Assembly (NCBI RefSeq): GCF_002217475.1
Contig: NZ_MUHH01000017.1
Span: 484,991 to 548,990, forward strand
Length of the DNA stretch: 64,000 nucleotides
Source of the DNA: Flavobacterium tructae
Lineage (GTDB): Bacteria; Bacteroidota; Bacteroidia; Flavobacteriales; Flavobacteriaceae
Direction of reading: 5' to 3'
Shown: in pieces, positions 17,740 through 56,459 of the stretch
Layout of the letters: each line of letters begins with the position of its first letter
Numbering within the stretch: the first letter of the stretch is position 1
Position numbers and translations under genes: made by a program
The notes under the pieces: model-generated
Databases searched by the model: none
What the model was told of the DNA's origin: nothing
What the model saw: the letters and a program-made list of their open reading frames with translations, nothing else

Positions 17740-17906
17740 ACGCGGATGACGCGGATTCGCTATTGCGAAAACGCGGATAAAAACGGATTTTTTCTTGATT
17801 TTTAACTAGAAAAGAACTTAAAAAAGGCTTTCTAAAATTTCAGAAAGCCTTTTTTATTGTCAACTAATTCGATAGTTTTCAAATATTAAATCCGCGTCAT
17901 CCGCGT
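17740..17906. repeat. Inverted repeat around a bidirectional terminator, between the peptidase and metK
   Basis: An 18-base sequence at 17740-17757 (ACGCGGATGACGCGGATT) recurs inverted and perfect at 17889-17906. Between the arms lies a 13-bp hairpin (17821-17833 with 17842-17854) with A and T runs on both sides. It can stop both the rightward peptidase and the leftward metK transcripts. The rest of this 330-base gap shows no ORF I trust. Confidence 0.7.
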
Positions 17907-19337: not shown

Positions 19338-19462
19338 AAAAAGGGCTAAAGGAGAATTTCTGCTTTAGCATTTTTTACTACCGAAATCTATGTTTCAGTA
19401 CCCATAACGAACCGTTTCATTATGAAGAGGTTGCAATCAGTTCAAATTTTTCCTCTTGTATT
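19338..19462 (-). promoter_or_regulatory. Structured metK leader with terminator, SAM-II-like
   Basis: On the minus strand the leader shows: an outer stem AAGAGG (19457-19452) with CCTCTT (19430-19425); a 9-bp hairpin (19424-19416 with 19411-19403, loop ACGG); an 8-bp hairpin (19400-19393 with 19386-19379); then GCTAAAG/CTTTAGC (19369-19363 with 19351-19345) followed by Ts, which looks like a terminator. The loop of the outer stem reads ATTTGAACTGATTGCAA and a later segment reads AATGCTAAAG. Both resemble the conserved L1 and GCUAAA parts of SAM-II riboswitches, but here hairpins are inserted between them. A SAM-sensing role is inferred; the SAM-I core is absent. Confidence 0.45.
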
Positions 19463-19497: not shown

Positions 19498-19555
19498 ATT
19501 AAACTTTTCATTTTTTTGATTTTAGAAGCAGAAATTTAACATATCATACTATTTT

Positions 19556-19569
19556 GATAGGGTAATAGA
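19556..19569 (+). promoter_or_regulatory. Shared 14-base motif upstream of the receptor leader
   Basis: GATAGGGTAATAGA occurs here and, identical, at 34412-34425 in front of a sulfur-locus permease. Here it sits about 19 bases upstream of the -33 element of the receptor leader. It could be a regulator site; this is inference from two copies. Confidence 0.3.
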
Positions 19570-19640: not shown

Positions 19641-19706
19641 ATGAAATTAACGATTTGCAATATGTCATGTATGATGCCGGAGCCTTCCGCAGAGACACTG
19701 TTGTAG
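19641..19706 (+). CDS. Met/Cys-containing leader peptide (21 aa) before a TonB-dependent receptor
   Basis: A 21-codon ORF starts at the ATG of 19641 and ends with TAG at 19704. Met codons are at 1, 8, 11 and 12 and Cys codons at 6 and 10, clustered as ICNMSCMMP. It is followed 25 bases later by an intrinsic terminator and then by the receptor gene. GCAGAG at 19689-19694 can pair with CTCTGC in the terminator 5' arm. This is the layout of a leader peptide in a transcription attenuator responding to sulfur amino acid supply. It is the weakest of the three leaders in this window because the pairing is only 6 bp. Confidence 0.55.
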   Translation: MKLTICNMSCMMPEPSAETLL

Positions 19707-19731
19707 TTTTTTTTAAGAAATATACATATAG

Positions 19732-19759
19732 AACCTCTGCCGCTCGCAGGGGTTTTTTT
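19732..19759 (+). terminator. Attenuator-type terminator before the TonB receptor
   Basis: AACCTCTGC (19732-19740) pairs with GCAGGGGTT (19746-19754), 9 bp including one U-G, loop of 5, then seven Ts. It lies between a short leader ORF and the receptor start at 19829, inside one transcript, so it is likely conditional. Confidence 0.75.
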
Positions 19760-22837: not shown

Positions 22838-22921
22838 TTTGGTAGTTAGGAAAATACTTATTACATTTACTCTATAGAATTAGTAGAATTAAAAAAGACA
22901 TTAATTTTAAATAAAATAAAA

Positions 22922-23002
22922 ATGAAAACAATAGCAAATAGTATGATGATGTGTTGTGAGATGATGCAAATGTGCATCCCAAATTGCTGTTACCAAAAGT
23001 GA
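22922..23002 (+). CDS. Met/Cys-rich leader peptide (26 aa) before small protein and metY
   Basis: A 26-codon ORF runs from ATG 22922 to TGA 23000-23002. Twelve of the 26 residues contain sulfur: Met at 1, 8, 9, 10, 14, 15 and 17, and Cys at 11, 12, 18, 22 and 23 (core MMMCCEMMQMC). It has no other recognisable feature. A terminator follows 31 bases downstream, and the last codons (ACCAAAAG, 22992-22999) are exactly complementary to the 5' arm and loop edge of that terminator. Downstream genes are a small protein and metY. A leader peptide sensing Met and/or Cys through ribosome stalling is the simplest reading. Confidence 0.72.
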   Translation: MKTIANSMMMCCEMMQMCIPNCCYQK

Positions 23003-23068
23003 AAGAGTAAATCTTTGTTATAGTTAGAACTATAAGCCCTTTTGGTCGCCATCCGAAAGGGCTTTTTT
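22992..23068 (+). terminator. Attenuator: antiterminator segment plus terminator before metY
   Basis: The terminator stem joins 23034-23045 to 23053-23064 (12 bp with one U-G, loop of 7), then Ts to 23068. ACCAAAAG at 22992-22999 can instead pair over 8 bp with CTTTTGGT at 23039-23046 and prevent the stem. A small hairpin (TTATAG at 23018-23023, CTATAA at 23030-23035) sits between. A ribosome finishing the leader covers 22992-22999 and favours termination; one halted at the Met/Cys codons around 22943-22975 leaves it free. Stalling at Cys 22-23 would mask it. Confidence 0.68.
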
Positions 23069-23092: not shown

Positions 23093-23281
23093 ATGAAAAC
23101 ACTACATATTATAGTAAGAGAGATTTTATACAGATTGAAAACCGATTATAAACGATTTGCAGCTGCAGTTAAAAATAGAAAAGTGAATACAGCTAAAATA
23201 AAAGGAGAGCTTTATTCGAGTGAATCAAATTCTCTGCTTTTCCAAATGTACCTGCATGAAGAAGAAGATCTTTTTATTTGA
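23093..23281 (+). CDS. Small protein with C-terminal SLLFxMY...LFI signature, first copy
   Basis: This 62-residue protein is read from the ATG at 23093; an upstream in-frame start at 23042 lies within the terminator and is rejected. The N-terminal two thirds are basic (KTDYKRFAAAVKNRKVN). The C-terminus, NSLLFQMYLHEEEDLFI, matches the last residues of a second small protein at 26526-26726. It lacks Cys. It lies between a Met/Cys attenuator and metY (70 bases downstream). I recognise no family. It may be a regulatory or adaptor peptide co-controlled with methionine genes. Confidence 0.7.
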   Translation: MKTLHIIVREILYRLKTDYKRFAAAVKNRKVNTAKIKGELYSSESNSLLFQMYLHEEEDLFI

Positions 23282-23351: not shown

Positions 23352-24656
23352 ATGAGCACACAAAAATTTGCCACAAACGCACTACACGCAGGACACGATG
23401 TTACTAAAAATGCAGGAACCAGAGCAGTTCCAATTTACCAGACATCATCGTATGTTTTTAACAATTCAGATCATGCAGCCAATTTATTTGGTCTTGCTGA
23501 AGCCGGATTCATTTACACCCGATTAAATAACCCTACAAATGATGTTTTGGAACAACGTCTTGCGGCGCTTGAAGGTGGAATTGGGGCAGTAGTTACAGCC
23601 TCAGGAGCCTCTGCAATTTCCACATCTTTATTGACTTTGCTAAAAGCAGGAGATCATATTGTGGCTTCAAATAGTTTGTACGGAGGAACGTATAATTTAT
23701 TGAGTGTAACTTTACCGCGGTTAGGGATCACAACTACCTTTGTAGATCCTTCAAAACCCGAAAATTTCACTAAAGCTGCCAAAGAAAACACACGGGCATT
23801 TTTTGTTGAATCTTTAGGAAACCCAAAATTAGATGTGCTCGATCTGAAAGCGATTTCAGCAGAAGCTAAAAAATTTAAGGTTCCTTTTATTGTAGACAAT
23901 ACAGTAGCTACTCCGTATTTATTAAATCCGATTGCTTACGGAGCAGACATTGTCATTCACTCCCTTACCAAATATATTTCAGGAAACGGAACCTCATTAG
24001 GAGGAGCCATTATCGACGCCGGAACTTTTGACTGGGCCAATGGTAAATTTCCTGAGTTCACAGAACCTTCACCGGGATATCATGGCTTAGTGTATCACGA
24101 AGCTTTAGGAAATGCCGCTTTCATTGCTAAAGCCAGAATCGAAGGATTACGTGATTTTGGAGCAGCTTTGAGTCCGTTTAATGCTTTCCAGATCATTCAG
24201 GGATTAGAGACTTTACCAATCCGAATTCAAAAACACAGCGAAAATGCTTTGGCTTTGGCTTCCTGGCTAGAAAAACAGGAAGAAGTAGCCTGGGTGAATT
24301 ATCCGGGCTTAAAAAACAATAAATATTATGACCTGTCACAGCAGTACTTGCCAAAAGGGCAAAGTGGTGTCGTTACCTTTGGATTAAAAGGAGGTTTTGA
24401 AGCAGCCAAAAAAGTGGTAGATGAAACCAAACTTTTCTCGCTTCTGGCCAACATTGGCGATACCAAGTCATTAATCATTCATCCTGCAAGTACAACGCAT
24501 CAGCAATTGTCTGATGCCGAACAATTAGAAACGGGAGTTTCAAAAGATCTGGTTCGACTTTCCGTTGGACTGGAAGATATAGAAGATTTAATTGCTGACT
24601 TGCAAACTGTTTTTGCAAGCGTGACCGAGTCACAATACAGCATTAATAAAAACTAG
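23352..24656 (+). CDS. metY: O-acetylhomoserine sulfhydrylase
   Basis: This 434-residue PLP enzyme of the Cys/Met metabolism family joins sulfide to O-acetylhomoserine, giving homocysteine. The internal aldimine Lys is in HSLTKYISGNG near residue 206. FIYTRLNNPTNDVLEQRLAALEG and VTASGASAISTSLLTLL at the N-terminal side are typical. Its length, about 430 residues, and the GSxSGxGTSLGGAIIDAG-like region place it with MetY rather than with the shorter cystathionine gamma-synthases. It is co-directional with metX and thrA, which supply its substrate. Confidence 0.92.
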   Translation: MSTQKFATNALHAGHDVTKNAGTRAVPIYQTSSYVFNNSDHAANLFGLAEAGFIYTRLNNPTNDVLEQRLAALEGGIGAVVTASGASAISTSLLTLLKAGDHIVASNSLYGGTYNLLSVTLPRLGITTTFVDPSKPENFTKAAKENTRAFFVESLGNPKLDVLDLKAISAEAKKFKVPFIVDNTVATPYLLNPIAYGADIVIHSLTKYISGNGTSLGGAIIDAGTFDWANGKFPEFTEPSPGYHGLVYHEALGNAAFIAKARIEGLRDFGAALSPFNAFQIIQGLETLPIRIQKHSENALALASWLEKQEEVAWVNYPGLKNNKYYDLSQQYLPKGQSGVVTFGLKGGFEAAKKVVDETKLFSLLANIGDTKSLIIHPASTTHQQLSDAEQLETGVSKDLVRLSVGLEDIEDLIADLQTVFASVTESQYSINKN

Positions 24657-24834: not shown

Positions 24835-25923
24835 ATGTCAAAGCTTAAAATAAATATCATCCTTTTTGGAATTGGAAATATAGGGAGTACTTTGATCAAT
24901 CAAATTATTGAAAGTCAGGAGTTTTTTCTCAAAAGTAAGAATATCGATTTTCACTTTCCAATTATCACCAATTCAACTGTAGCTTTTTTCGAGAAAGAAG
25001 GCGTAGGATATGCTTGGGAAACCAATTTTCTGGAATTGGCCGTTCCTTTTAAGGTTCAGGATATTATTGAATTTGCCAAAGAAAATGAATTTGAAAATTT
25101 AATCGCTGTAGATGCCACTGCGAGCGATGAATTAATACATCACTACAACACATTGATCGAAAATGGGTTTAATATTGTAGCGGTAAATAAAAAAGCCAAT
25201 ACATTGCCGATTGATTTGTACAAAGAGATCAGGTCAAACCTTAAAAAGTACGACAAAGAGTTTTTGTATGAAACCTCAGTAGATACCGGATTCCCGGTTT
25301 TACAAACTTTGAGAGACTTGTATTATTCAGGCGAAAAAATCACAAAGATTCGTGGTGTTTTTTCAGATAATCTGAGTTATGTTTTTAATCGCTTTGCTGC
25401 CGAAGATACAACCTTCTCTTCTTTATTAAAAGATGCAAGTTTACTCGGTTTAATGCGTTCTACCTTTAAAGAGGATTTATCCGGAAATGATACAGCCCGA
25501 AAATTACTGATTCTCACGAGAGAAATTGGAAAAGATTTTGAGCTGTCAGATATAAAAATTAACTCCCTTATTAATGAAGAGCATCTGGAGCAAAACGGCA
25601 TTCTGAATAAAGAAGCAATCGATCGATCGTTTAAGATTGCTAAAATTAGTCAGGCAGATGATCATGTACTGCGATACGTGGGAGAATTTGATGTTGTAAA
25701 AAATACATTAGAAGTCAAACTGGTTTCAGAACCTATTACTTCAGCAATAGGTCAGTTGAAAGGCTCAGATACCATTTTCGAAATTTATACACAATCGTAT
25801 GCAGCTGTTCCAATTGTGATTCAAAGTGCTTCGGCCTGTAAGCAAGCCATTTCAAGGGGTGTAATTACAGATATTTTAAAAGTAGCCGAAAAGATCAAAA
25901 ATAAAGAAGCAGTCTGGTTGTAA
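24835..25923 (+). CDS. Homoserine dehydrogenase-like protein lacking catalytic residues
   Basis: This 362-residue protein is homologous to the dehydrogenase half of the ThrA encoded at 28086. The NAD(P)-binding start FGIGNIGSTLI (residues 11-21) and Asp/Lys residues of the active site (D214, D219, K223 in yeast-like numbering, within EDLSGNDTARK) are kept. The essential Glu of the GYxEPDP motif is replaced by Arg at 208 (GLMRSTF), and the usual SGT and GAGLP loops read SDN and DTGFP. Homoserine dehydrogenase activity is therefore doubtful. The frame is intact, so it is a retained paralog, perhaps regulatory or with changed substrate, rather than a decaying gene. Confidence 0.8.
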   Translation: MSKLKINIILFGIGNIGSTLINQIIESQEFFLKSKNIDFHFPIITNSTVAFFEKEGVGYAWETNFLELAVPFKVQDIIEFAKENEFENLIAVDATASDELIHHYNTLIENGFNIVAVNKKANTLPIDLYKEIRSNLKKYDKEFLYETSVDTGFPVLQTLRDLYYSGEKITKIRGVFSDNLSYVFNRFAAEDTTFSSLLKDASLLGLMRSTFKEDLSGNDTARKLLILTREIGKDFELSDIKINSLINEEHLEQNGILNKEAIDRSFKIAKISQADDHVLRYVGEFDVVKNTLEVKLVSEPITSAIGQLKGSDTIFEIYTQSYAAVPIVIQSASACKQAISRGVITDILKVAEKIKNKEAVWL

Positions 25924-26274: not shown

Positions 26275-26376
26275 ATGCAAGAATTTTTTAAAATAGCAAT
26301 TAAGTCCCAGATGAATAAGTCCCTACAGATGAACAAGATGTTTAACGTCGCACGTATTTGTGTATGCGTCTGTTGA
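26275..26376 (+). CDS. Met/Cys-containing leader peptide (33 aa) before the second small protein
   Basis: A 33-codon ORF runs from ATG 26275 to TGA 26374-26376. Met codons are at 1, 13, 19 and 22, and Cys at 29, 31 and 33, the ORF ending in ICVCVC. A perfect 11-bp terminator follows 33 bases after the stop. ACTAAAAG at 26378-26385, directly after the stop codon, can pair with CTTTTGGT of the terminator 5' arm (one G-U). The order leader, switch segment, small hairpin, terminator, small protein is the same as at 22922-23281. I infer an attenuator leader. Confidence 0.68.
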   Translation: MQEFFKIAIKSQMNKSLQMNKMFNVARICVCVC

Positions 26377-26377
26377 T

Positions 26378-26446
26378 ACTAAAAGTATATATAAGTTGTA
26401 AAAAACTTGAACCCTTTTGGTATTAAAAATCCAAAAGGGTTTTTTT
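26378..26446 (+). terminator. Attenuator: antiterminator segment plus terminator before the second small protein
   Basis: AACCCTTTTGG (26410-26420) pairs perfectly with CCAAAAGGGTT (26431-26441), loop of 10, T run to 26446. The competing segment ACTAAAAG is at 26378-26385, and a small hairpin AAGTT/AACTT (26393-26397, 26404-26408) lies between them. The core CCCTTTTGGT is shared with the attenuator at 23034. A ribosome at the stop codon would cover the competing segment; stalling at the Met codons would free it, stalling at the last Cys codons less clearly so. Confidence 0.68.
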
Positions 26447-26525
26447 ATTCCATTTGGTTACGATAACAAAGAAATAAACATAAAATAAAGATAATAACAC
26501 GCAAACTAACATAAACTTAAATGTC

Positions 26526-26726
26526 ATGAGCACAATAAACTACCTAACAAAGACTTTTTCAACATTGAAAAACATTAGAGCTAAAAGAAACAATGCACCG
26601 CCAACAAATGAATTGACCGATTCAAGATTCGGGGTGACTGAAACAAATAAAAAAGCGGAGAAAAAAAATCCGGATTCATTATTGTTTTTGATGTATTCAA
26701 AAGAAAATGAAACGCTTTTTATTTAA
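26526..26726 (+). CDS. Small protein with C-terminal SLLFxMY...LFI signature, second copy
   Basis: This 66-residue protein has a basic N-terminal half (TLKNIRAKRNN) and a polar linker, and ends in DSLLFLMYSKENETLFI. Compared with the 62-residue protein at 23093-23281, the ends share SLLF-x-MY-x(2)-E-x(3)-LFI while the rest has diverged, so the C-terminus is the constrained part. It has no Cys. It follows the second Met/Cys attenuator. A new promoter and a SAM-I riboswitch begin about 130-190 bases downstream, so it may be the only gene of its transcript. Confidence 0.68.
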   Translation: MSTINYLTKTFSTLKNIRAKRNNAPPTNELTDSRFGVTETNKKAEKKNPDSLLFLMYSKENETLFI

Positions 26727-26917
26727 ATCTAAAAGCATCATAAAATAGAGGGAAACCTGCTTAATTTTACTGGGCAAATTGTTCGGTAATTTTTTGCGTA
26801 CACTAGTTTTTGTTTGAATTATGTTTAAGAAATTGAGGAATCAGTTTCGATAAAATTTGTTTGTTTGAGAAATTAGTAGTTAATTTGCACCTTTAAGTTC
26901 AAAAACGTATTGAAATG

Positions 26918-27022
26918 TTATAAAGAAAGGACGAGGGATTAGACCCGATGAATCCTTAGCAACCCTTCGTTAAATCGAAGAAGGTGCTGCATTCTACCAC
27001 GCCCAAACGTGGAAAGATAACA
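26918..27022 (+). promoter_or_regulatory. SAM-I (S-box) riboswitch before metX-thrA
   Basis: Conserved SAM-I blocks are in order: GACGAGGGA (26931-26939), GACCCGATGAATCCTTAGCA (26943-26962), GAAGGTGCTGCATTCTACC (26981-26999) and AAAGATAAC. The outer stem pairs GTTAT (26918-26922) with ATAAC (27018-27022). A -7-like box TTAATTTGC (26881-26889) with TTG 18 bases before it gives the promoter. No terminator with a T run is seen behind it, so control of translation of metX is more likely. SAM is expected to lower expression of metX and thrA. Confidence 0.92.
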
Positions 27023-27094
27023 ACAAGAAATTTTCTGGTTTCACTCTAGACTTTCTTTCTAATATTTCCACATACAAATCAAAATTAAAAAGAT

Positions 27095-34363: not shown

Positions 34364-34427
34364 TTGATATTTAGAAATAAGTAGTAATTTTGCCATTCAA
34401 TCTACTAACCCGATAGGGTAATAGATT
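34364..34427 (+). promoter_or_regulatory. Promoter and 5' hairpin of the cys locus
   Basis: TTG (34364-34366) and TAATTTTG (34385-34392) are 18 bases apart. At about the transcription start lies a hairpin, AATCTA (34399-34404) with TAGATT (34422-34427), around CCC-GATA-GGG. It contains the motif GATAGGGTAATAGA also found at 19556. It may act as operator or RNA stem. Confidence 0.5.
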
Positions 34428-44340: not shown

Positions 44341-44406
44341 TTTAAAAAACACTTGCAATTGTTGAGACTATGTCTTTACTTTGCACTGTTCTTAAAATTA
44401 TTGAAA

Positions 44407-44517
44407 GTTATCACGAAAGGCGGAGGGAAAGACCCAATGAAACCTTAGCAACCCTTTATCATAAAGAAGGTGCTACATTCTACTTAATACAACATCTTTG
44501 TATTCAAGATAGATAAC
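44407..44517 (+). promoter_or_regulatory. SAM-I (S-box) riboswitch before metH
   Basis: The outer stem pairs GTTATC (44407-44412) with GATAAC (44512-44517). Conserved blocks: GGAGGGAAAGACCCAATGAA (44422-44441), CCTTAGCAACCC and AAGAAGGTGCTACATTCTAC (44464-44483). A -7-like box TTACTTTGC (44376-44384) precedes it. The RNA is followed by about 240 bases before metH, with a 21-codon ORF at 44590-44655 of unknown status. SAM should repress the split metH genes. Confidence 0.9.
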
Positions 44518-44760
44518 ACAAATACATTACACGTATTTCTCAAACTTTTCCTGACAACCTTACAATATTATTTTACTGAATTCAGTATCATGAGCGAATC
44601 ATTAACGCATTTTTTTGTGCTTAATCTTTCTCGCTTTTTGTTACAAACTTTTTAGATCTGACAGCTTTTTTTAAACTGTTGGATTTAAAGTGAAAATAGA
44701 ATTAATAAAAAACTTAGCACCATAGAACCTCAGTGTCTTAGTGGCTAAAAGAATAAAGAT

Positions 44761-54113: not shown

Positions 54114-56459
54114 ATGCAAATAAGTAGATTAATGCTCTTGATCGCCATTTTTTTTATTTCACTTCAAGGGTATTCACAAAAGGACAAAGTAAATTTAACA
54201 GGAGTTATTGTTAATCATCTTGGGAAAACTGCCGAAGGAGTTTCGGTAGCTTTAAAAGGAACAGAATACAGTACACTGACGAATAATAAAGGGGAGTATA
54301 AAATTAGTGCCAAGCCGGGAAATTATGTTTTGCTTGTTACCCATGTGGGTTATAAAACCACAGAAACTGCAATTTTTCTGAAGCTGGGAGGAAAGCCTAC
54401 TCAGAATATTATGATGGAAGAAGATATGGCAGCTTTAAAAGAAGTTGCAGTAACGGGAAAGTCCAAAGTTCAAAGAGTACGAGAACAGGCGTATAATATT
54501 ACAGCCATAGATTTAAAGAAAACCTACAATACGTCTGCCGATTTAAATCAGGTGTTGAATAAAACCACTGGAGTCCGCATTCGGGAATATGGAGGATTGG
54601 GATCGGCTTTTAATTTTTCACTGAATGGATTCTCCGGGAATCAGGTTAAATTCTTTTTGGACGGTGTACCTATGGACAGTTATGGTTCAGCTCTTACGCT
54701 GAATAATATTCCGGTAAACATGGCTGAACGTATTGATGTGTACAAAGGTGTTGTTCCTATTGAGTTAGGAGCGGATGCACTTGGGGGAGCTGTTAATATC
54801 GTAACCAATAAAAATGTAAACCGTTACATCGATGCTTCTTATAGTTATGGATCGTTTAACACGCACCGGGCAGCAATAAATACGAGATTCTCCGGTCGGG
54901 ATGGTTTTATTGCCAACATTAACGCTTTTGCAAATTATGCCGACAATGATTATAAGGTAGACGTAAGTGTTGTGGATAAAAATACCTCGAAGTTTTTACC
55001 GGAACAAAAATACAAGCATTTCCATGATGCCTATAAATCAGGAACCATAATGGCAGAAGCAGGATTTAAAAACAAGAGTTTTGCTGATTATCTGCTTGTT
55101 GGTTTTGCCGTTGCAGGCAATAAAAAAGAAATTCAACAGGGAAGAACAATGCAAAAAGTAGTAGGGCAGGCTTTTACAGATAGTGAAAGTTTTATTACCT
55201 CTTTGAAATTCAAAAAAAGTGATCTTTTTACTAAAGGATTGTCTTTAAGCATTAACTCCACTTATGCTTTAGTAAACAACCGTTCGATAGATACTTCTTC
55301 GCGAGTGTACGACTGGACAGGGAATTATATATACAGACAATTTGCAGGAGCAAATGATAAAGGCGAATTAGGAAACAAAACCATATACGTTTACGATGAG
55401 GCTAATGCACAGGTGACAACAAACTTAAAATACCAGTTCAATGAGCAGCATTCACTAGCGGTAAATTACTCTTATTTGGGCTACAAACGTAAAGAAACAA
55501 ACGAGTATTTAAAAGTTGTACAACTGGGAGAACCTACTATTGACAAAAATATTCTGGGTTTAAGTTATAATTTTAGCGGTCTCGATAATCGACTGGCTGT
55601 TTCAGGTTTTGGTAAAATGTTTGATTTAGCAACTCAAATGATCGCCAATAACATAACGCAATCTTCTTCATCAACAAATTATGGTTATGGCGCTACTTCA
55701 GCATACCATTTGACCGATAAATTTCAAATTAAAGGTTCTTATGAACATGCATATCGTTTACCTTCTGCTACAGAAATGCTGGGTGACGGACTTACGATAA
55801 ACAGCAATATCGGATTAAGACCTGAGAGTAGTGATAACGCAAATCTGGGAATGGCTTTTAATACTCAGAACAGCAAAAATCATTTTAATGTTGAGACGAG
55901 TATCATTTACAGAGAAGCAAAAGATTTTATCAGAGAAAAGCAGGAGGGAGACAAAACGGTTTTTGAAAATCTTCAAAACGTGCAAATAACAGGTATTGAC
56001 GGTGTTTTTAGATACGGGTACAAAGACTTAATAAATTTTGAAGTAAACGGAACGTATCAAAAGAGCCTTAACAAAAACAAATATAAAGCAGGAACAACCA
56101 GCCCTGATGCCTTGTATGACGCACAATTGCCTAATGTTCCAATCTTCTACGGAAACGCTGATCTGACTTTTAACTTTAAAAACATCAGACATCAGGACGA
56201 TAGACTTTCTTTAAATGTAAGTGCCAATTATATAGATGCTTTTTATCTGACCTGGCCGGTACTGGGAAGTCTGGAAACCAAAAAAGCTATTCCGGAACAA
56301 TTTACACAGAATGCTATGGTTGCCTATTCTTTTTTAAACGGCAAATACAATTTGGCTTTCGAGTGTAGAAATATTACCGACATAAAAGTGTACGATTATT
56401 TTAAGGTTCAAAAACCGGGACGTGCTTTTTCAGTGAAGTTCAGATACTTTCTACAGTAA
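54114..56459 (+). CDS. TonB-dependent receptor with carboxypeptidase-regulatory-like domain
   Basis: This 781-residue outer-membrane receptor has a signal peptide to about residue 21, a CarboxypepD_reg-like domain at about 25-105 and a plug at about 115-240 (VFFLDGVPMDSYG-like FFLDGVPMDSYGS, then GAVNIVTNK). The barrel ends in RAFSVKFRYFLQ. With the DUF4374 lipoprotein and PepSY membrane gene behind it, it forms a likely iron or siderophore uptake operon; the ligand is inferred, not seen. Confidence 0.88.
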   Translation: MQISRLMLLIAIFFISLQGYSQKDKVNLTGVIVNHLGKTAEGVSVALKGTEYSTLTNNKGEYKISAKPGNYVLLVTHVGYKTTETAIFLKLGGKPTQNIMMEEDMAALKEVAVTGKSKVQRVREQAYNITAIDLKKTYNTSADLNQVLNKTTGVRIREYGGLGSAFNFSLNGFSGNQVKFFLDGVPMDSYGSALTLNNIPVNMAERIDVYKGVVPIELGADALGGAVNIVTNKNVNRYIDASYSYGSFNTHRAAINTRFSGRDGFIANINAFANYADNDYKVDVSVVDKNTSKFLPEQKYKHFHDAYKSGTIMAEAGFKNKSFADYLLVGFAVAGNKKEIQQGRTMQKVVGQAFTDSESFITSLKFKKSDLFTKGLSLSINSTYALVNNRSIDTSSRVYDWTGNYIYRQFAGANDKGELGNKTIYVYDEANAQVTTNLKYQFNEQHSLAVNYSYLGYKRKETNEYLKVVQLGEPTIDKNILGLSYNFSGLDNRLAVSGFGKMFDLATQMIANNITQSSSSTNYGYGATSAYHLTDKFQIKGSYEHAYRLPSATEMLGDGLTINSNIGLRPESSDNANLGMAFNTQNSKNHFNVETSIIYREAKDFIREKQEGDKTVFENLQNVQITGIDGVFRYGYKDLINFEVNGTYQKSLNKNKYKAGTTSPDALYDAQLPNVPIFYGNADLTFNFKNIRHQDDRLSLNVSANYIDAFYLTWPVLGSLETKKAIPEQFTQNAMVAYSFLNGKYNLAFECRNITDIKVYDYFKVQKPGRAFSVKFRYFLQ

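Follow-up and report, generated by a model that had tools for sequence, protein, structure and literature searches.

How is metY controlled in Flavobacterium, where a short open reading frame (ORF) crowded with Met and Cys codons lies between a receptor gene and metY? Bacterial methionine control, as far as known, relies mostly on riboswitches, T-boxes and repressors. A first-pass annotation of this DNA had proposed a leader-peptide attenuator, consisting of a 26-codon ORF with 12 Met or Cys residues followed by a 12-bp terminator. Both parts were recovered in the window (the whole 64,000-nucleotide stretch of F. tructae DNA that was analyzed). The leader peptide, MKTIANSMMMCCEMMQMCIPNCCYQK, contains 12 Met/Cys among its 26 residues when the start Met is counted, and was an extreme outlier among the 377 ATG-initiated window ORFs of 15 to 45 amino acids, with 11 Met/Cys after the start (next highest, 7) and a Met/Cys fraction of 0.42 (next highest, 0.24). 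This richness was matched in 0 of 1,000 dinucleotide shuffles. The terminator hairpin, 12 pairs with a 7-nt loop and a T tract (hairpin at 23034-23064; 0.3 expected in shuffles), starts about 30 nt after the leader stop codon.

The leader is followed by genes for a 62-aa protein, MetY and homoserine dehydrogenase, and then by a second small protein gene, a SAM-I riboswitch and metX (Table 1). The family to which the metY product belongs, TIGR01326, makes both homocysteine and cysteine. The gene for the 62-aa protein precedes metY in most close relatives. The 62-aa and 66-aa small proteins are related to each other, sharing the C-terminus SLLFxMYxxExExLFI, and one stands behind each of two attenuators (A, before metY, and B); neither belongs to a Pfam or NCBIfam family. 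This one sulfur gene cluster holds riboswitches and leader-peptide attenuators together. In addition, a near-palindrome lies just upstream of the leader; its form CTATCRAATTAGTAG had four matches in the window with at most 2 mismatches, against 0.37 expected. It is possibly the operator of a DNA-binding regulator or part of a promoter region.

Table 1. Features of the metY leader region and of related elements (positions in the window; B2 instances, positions in the respective loci of relatives)
Feature	Position	Strand	Basis or remark
Near-palindrome CTATCRAATTAGTAG near sulfur genes	22872-22886, 17861-17875, 19546-19560, 34402-34416		
SAM-II riboswitch	19355-19461	-	before metK
Third attenuator, C	19641-19756	+	before TonB-dependent receptor
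C leader MKLTICNMSCMMPEPSAETLL	19641-19706	+	
C strand GCAGAG	19689-19694	+	
C terminator	19730-19756	+	with CTCTGC at 19735-19740
Near-palindrome CTATAGAATTAGTAG	22872-22886	+	just upstream of leader; kept as CTATCRAATTAGTMG in most relatives
Leader peptide ORF MKTIANSMMMCCEMMQMCIPNCCYQK	22922-23002	+	26 aa; conserved in relatives
Region 1, 5' arm of helix 1:2	22930-22937	+	covariation; RNAalifold
Sensing zone, Met/Cys codons 8-18 (MMMCCEMMQMC)	22943-22975	+	masked-ribosome folding
Helix 1:2, 3' arm, within late Cys codons	22984-22991	+	covariation; RNAalifold
Region 2, antiterminator 5' strand ACCAAAAG	22992-22999	+	99.8% paired in 58 distinct sequences
Hairpin AAAGA/TCTTT enclosed by antiterminator	23002-23016	+	98.6% paired; one compensatory change
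Hairpin ATAG/CTAT enclosed by antiterminator	23020-23033	+	helix cells 100% paired; 4 sequences with compensatory change
Intrinsic terminator, 12 bp and T tract	23034-23068	+	99.9% of cells paired
Region 3 CTTTTGGT, common to antiterminator and terminator	23039-23046	+	
62-aa small protein, uncharacterized	23093-23281	+	conserved C-terminus SLLFQMYxxEExxLF
metY, O-acetylhomoserine/O-acetylserine sulfhydrylase	23352-24656	+	TIGR01326, 648.9 bits (cut-off 495.1)
Homoserine dehydrogenase	24835-25923	+	PF00742, PF03447
Second attenuator, B	26311-26447	+	before second small protein, SAM-I riboswitch and metX
B leader MNKSLQMNKMFNVARICVCVC	26311-26376	+	longer start at 26275
B region 2 TACTAAAAG	26377-26385	+	
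B terminator	26410-26441	+	followed by T tract
66-aa small protein	26526-26726		
SAM-I riboswitch	26915-27023	+	before metX; RF00162, 76.4 bits
SAM-I riboswitch	44405-44519	+	before metH
B2 instances	L015 5896-6031; L029 5862-5999; L045 5785-5918		

The first-pass annotation had proposed conservation in relatives as a check, and the leader peptide, antiterminator and terminator were all kept there with compensatory changes. By BLASTN, the leader, conserved in more than 100 species of the genus, was detected at E<1e-9 in 112 of 399 Flavobacterium genomes, its own included; this was the only threshold used, the tally at E<=1 (399/399) being meaningless in AT-rich DNA. In a genome collection at species level, the regions upstream of the 80 metY loci closest to this one were inspected; the nearest were those of Flavobacterium species, and nearly all 80 loci carried a Met/Cys-rich ORF just before a terminator. 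The model R1 detected the type-A element in about 70 of these 80 loci, most of them members of the R1 training set; outside that set, L064, L068, L074, L075, L078, L080 and L081 matched at E 7.5e-14 or better.

Within alignment A1 (59 sequences), peptide lengths differed by whole codons, most being 25 to 27. Residues beside the Met/Cys codons varied freely, codon 13 being E, D, S, K, Q, R or absent, and most sequences retained their MM, CC and MC pairs. Leaders outside the alignment were still Met/Cys-rich despite greatly differing sequences. In two leaders, L039 and L065, an extra base after the sensing zone shifts the frame so that the late CCC becomes LLL, with the RNA TTGCTATTGCCAAAAG retained. 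These leaders keep the late RNA and lose the late peptide. Constraint thus falls on codons in the early part of the leader and on RNA in the late part.

The RNA itself contains a conserved covarying helix between the start and the end of the ORF (helix 1:2), which the first-pass annotation had not described. In this helix 95.2% of cells were paired, and six pairs were changed on both sides, giving 34 double-change cells against 8.0 in shuffles. When the partner was slid by 1 to 3 columns, pairing fell to 20-57%, and RNAalifold recovered the helix unaided. The antiterminator had been noted from the start as an exact 8-nt complementarity between the end of the ORF and the terminator, and this was confirmed: ACCAAAAG, in the last codons, is the perfect complement of CTTTTGGT, which forms the inner part of the terminator 5' arm plus one loop base. 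Almost fully paired, the antiterminator is yet nearly invariant within the close set, and the sequence evidence for co-change comes mainly from distant members, with the pairs TTCCAAAAG/CTTTTGGA, TTACCAAAA/TTTTGGTAA and TGCCGAAAG/CTTTTGGCA. One clade has replaced both region 2 and region 3 (GCAGAG/CTCTGC). Across 18 leaders (types A, B and C plus L142), native region 2/3 duplexes summed to -213.0 kcal/mol, compared with -149.0 (sd 11.1) for swapped partners, and 0 of 20,000 permutations reached the native value. Sequence and conservation establish the parts and the codon positions, and show that the parts exclude one another and have co-evolved.

The effect of ribosome position was modeled on RNA ending at the terminator loop, folded with 30 nt masked by the ribosome. 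The antiterminator probability was 0.98-0.99 with the A-site at any codon from 2 to 20 and dropped to at most 0.01 from codon 21, and the switch fell at codon 20-22 in 59/59 sequences. The first-pass annotation had expected stalling within 22943-22990; the end of that stretch has to be drawn in, because in these foldings stalling acts only to about codon 20 (22981). Every internal Met codon and the early Cys codons precede the switch point. The late Cys codons lie behind it, in a blind zone, and are constrained as RNA, a property beyond the earlier description. By this model, every Met codon and the first three Cys codons would be able to sense supply, and the late Cys codons would not.

At full-length equilibrium the terminator was more stable even with an early stalled ribosome, so the decision to antiterminate must be kinetic. 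The antiterminator also formed in truncated RNA without a ribosome, because helix 1:2, although present and covarying, abuts the antiterminator and did not compete with it in the foldings. The foldings thus suggest readthrough as the default of an untranslated leader, and helix 1:2 would not act in the textbook way; by analogy with trp, it may be a hairpin at which polymerase pauses and so stays in step with the ribosome.

The locus thus combines a short upstream ORF rich in codons for the pathway product, an intrinsic terminator before the first structural gene, and an antiterminator, conserved by co-change, of which one strand also belongs to the terminator; in the foldings, an early-stalled ribosome leaves region 2 free, and a ribosome at the stop codon covers it. 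All four are marks of ribosome-mediated attenuators. Collectively, these data support the attenuator interpretation of the first-pass annotation, and this real, conserved locus is, on the sequence evidence, most likely a Met/Cys-responsive attenuator. We put at roughly 0.86 the probability that it is a ribosome-mediated transcription attenuator of the trp/his type, reading the supply of charged tRNA-Met and/or tRNA-Cys upstream of metY. When Met and Cys are plentiful, a ribosome at the leader end would cover ACCAAAAG, and the nascent RNA would fold the terminator. Under shortage of either amino acid, the ribosome would stall at MMMCC or MMQMC and leave ACCAAAAG free. Before synthesis of the terminator 3' arm, ACCAAAAG would then pair with CTTTTGGT around the two small hairpins, and RNA polymerase would read on into the gene for the small protein, into metY and probably into the homoserine dehydrogenase gene behind it. 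Translation, stalling, readthrough and the dominance of either amino acid are what we infer. The organism also appears to use classical attenuation elsewhere, since hisG in the same genome (L173), which served as a positive control, is preceded by a classical His leader, MISNQLHHHHFHYCSQAMC, and a terminator; a poly-His pattern scan for this control returned only unrelated runs.

Two sibling attenuators, B and C, are present in the window, and in relatives such elements are often arranged in tandem. Attenuator B was an R1 match in its own genome (E=1.2e-5), and its Met/Cys content was reached in 1 of 1,000 shuffles. Its TACTAAAAG pairs with CTTTTGGTA, giving a 13-bp antiterminator duplex, and it is found at the corresponding place downstream of metY in most relatives. 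In other species, homologues of C stand before the receptor gene or immediately ahead of metY, or form a tandem with A, which then follows a few hundred nt downstream. Three C-type leaders (L074, L078 and L081) are shifted in frame after the Met/Cys part and keep the GCAGAG strand. The position of C suggests uptake of a sulfur source by the TonB-dependent receptor. A leader of a fourth type, B2 (MNLKVNKMFCAISV...), stands in tandem just upstream of B in many relatives, and its GAGGCT can pair with AGCCTC of its own terminator. Other candidates were rejected: the weak R1 matches L115, L117 and L120 of the same genome (E of 0.006 or higher) proved to be either coding sequence or look-alikes of a terminator, minus-strand R1 matches over the metY terminator were discarded, and a Met/Cys ORF at window position 56107 has no terminator behind it on the same strand.

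The siblings bear on which amino acid is sensed. It is possible, though we consider it the less probable case, that a single amino acid, most likely Met, gives the signal, with the Cys codons present by chance or for the sake of the RNA structure. The Met codons come first in the leader and would stall the ribosome first, the late Cys codons form helix 1:2 within the blind zone, and L142, from another family of the order, has a Met-only leader, MNYLNMYMRMLMPRLT, before metY (roughly 1320-1440), in which CTTAAAAGAG matches CTCTTTTAAG of the terminator as a 10-nt complement. This single case is suggestive. However, the CC pair at codons 11-12 lies inside the sensing zone and is kept in nearly all relatives, and Cys recurs in the B and C leaders. 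For the fuller scheme, in which the leader acts as an OR gate for Met or Cys shortage, serial leader pairs (C then A before metY; B2 then B before metX) tighten control, and the element in Flavobacterium occupies the position that a SAM-I riboswitch has before metY in sister genera, we see about even odds. If true, such a dual-input system would sense the charging of elongator tRNA-Met though every initiation also needs Met.

Sensing by the nascent peptide rather than by codons appears improbable. A Met/Cys-rich chain could bind a metal such as Cu(I), or sense redox, and so control stalling; the clusters MMMCC and MCCMMMMCMC resemble copper ligands, and a nascent exported protein that senses copper provides a precedent (PMC9973294). 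However, the genes downstream are sulfur amino acid genes, Met/Cys spacing and order vary freely among types A, B and C, and codon position alone suffices for the switch geometry.

Still less credible is a metabolite-binding riboswitch of the SAM kind that holds an ORF by chance, even though SAM-I and SAM-II elements occur in the window and a SAM-I riboswitch lies directly before metY in five genomes of other genera, four of the same family (L131, L133, L135, L137) and one of another family of the order (L149). Over 22922-23068 the Rfam SAM aptamer models gave no match, nothing in the leader region passed an Rfam gathering score, and below-threshold matches were at chance level; the Rfam T-box model likewise had no match at the gathering score in the whole window. 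Moreover, the Met/Cys codons and helices explain most of the conserved nucleotides. At metY, the leader attenuator and SAM-I may have replaced one another. The reading as an ordinary 3' terminator preceded by a chance ORF, which the location between the receptor gene and metY might have suggested, is already refuted by conservation, as well as by the shuffles for Met/Cys richness (0/1000), the permutations for co-evolution (0/20000) and the position of the terminator, about 360 bp past the end of the receptor gene and just behind the leader.

A conserved Met/Cys leader-peptide attenuator in Bacteroidota would show that bacteria can use the translation of Met codons for sensing although each initiation event needs Met as well. 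It would also show that one genus has swapped SAM sensing for sensing of tRNA charging at the same gene, and would offer a compact system that can be tested in soil and water bacteria amenable to culture. The first-pass annotation knew of no such attenuator described in Bacteroidota, and none was found in the full-text literature, a coverage that takes in few subscription journals.

In the trp and his attenuators of enterobacteria, a short ORF carries control codons, one strand serves both the antiterminator and an intrinsic terminator, and region 2 is masked once the ribosome reaches the stop codon. The Flavobacterium leader resembles them in all three respects. However, it uses Met and Cys, its antiterminator closes two small hairpins, its helix 1:2 abuts the antiterminator and does not compete with it, and it belongs to another phylum. 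Among candidate systems, metL before metNIQ in Streptomyces lividans is likewise a Met/Cys leader (CMCRRMC) before a methionine gene, but in the parts of that report available it is leaderless, lacks a typical intrinsic terminator, serves another gene in another phylum, and is presented without covariation (PMC8079986). For uORFC-8-2 of Rhodobacterales, ribosome-mediated attenuation has been proposed from two tandem Cys codons and an intrinsic terminator before cysS; it differs in using Cys only, in controlling an aminoacyl-tRNA synthetase gene and in belonging to the alphaproteobacteria (PMC8632094). The mycobacterial polycysteine ORFs are Cys-rich leader peptides that control sulfur genes (PMC1262725; Canestrari 2020, as cited by other papers), a control described in the citing literature as translation attenuation, but they use Cys only and conserved terminator hairpins are missing (PMC1262725). 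Closest in lineage is Flavobacterium psychrophilum, the same genus, for which the same mechanism was proposed in general terms from clues to leader-peptide attenuation before amino acid operons; the main text names no Met or Cys leader, and the metY locus may be listed within that leader set (PMC9723704, main text). The classical mechanism is already known, and specificity for Met/Cys in a ribosome-mediated attenuator is, in the literature found, elsewhere described only for candidates.
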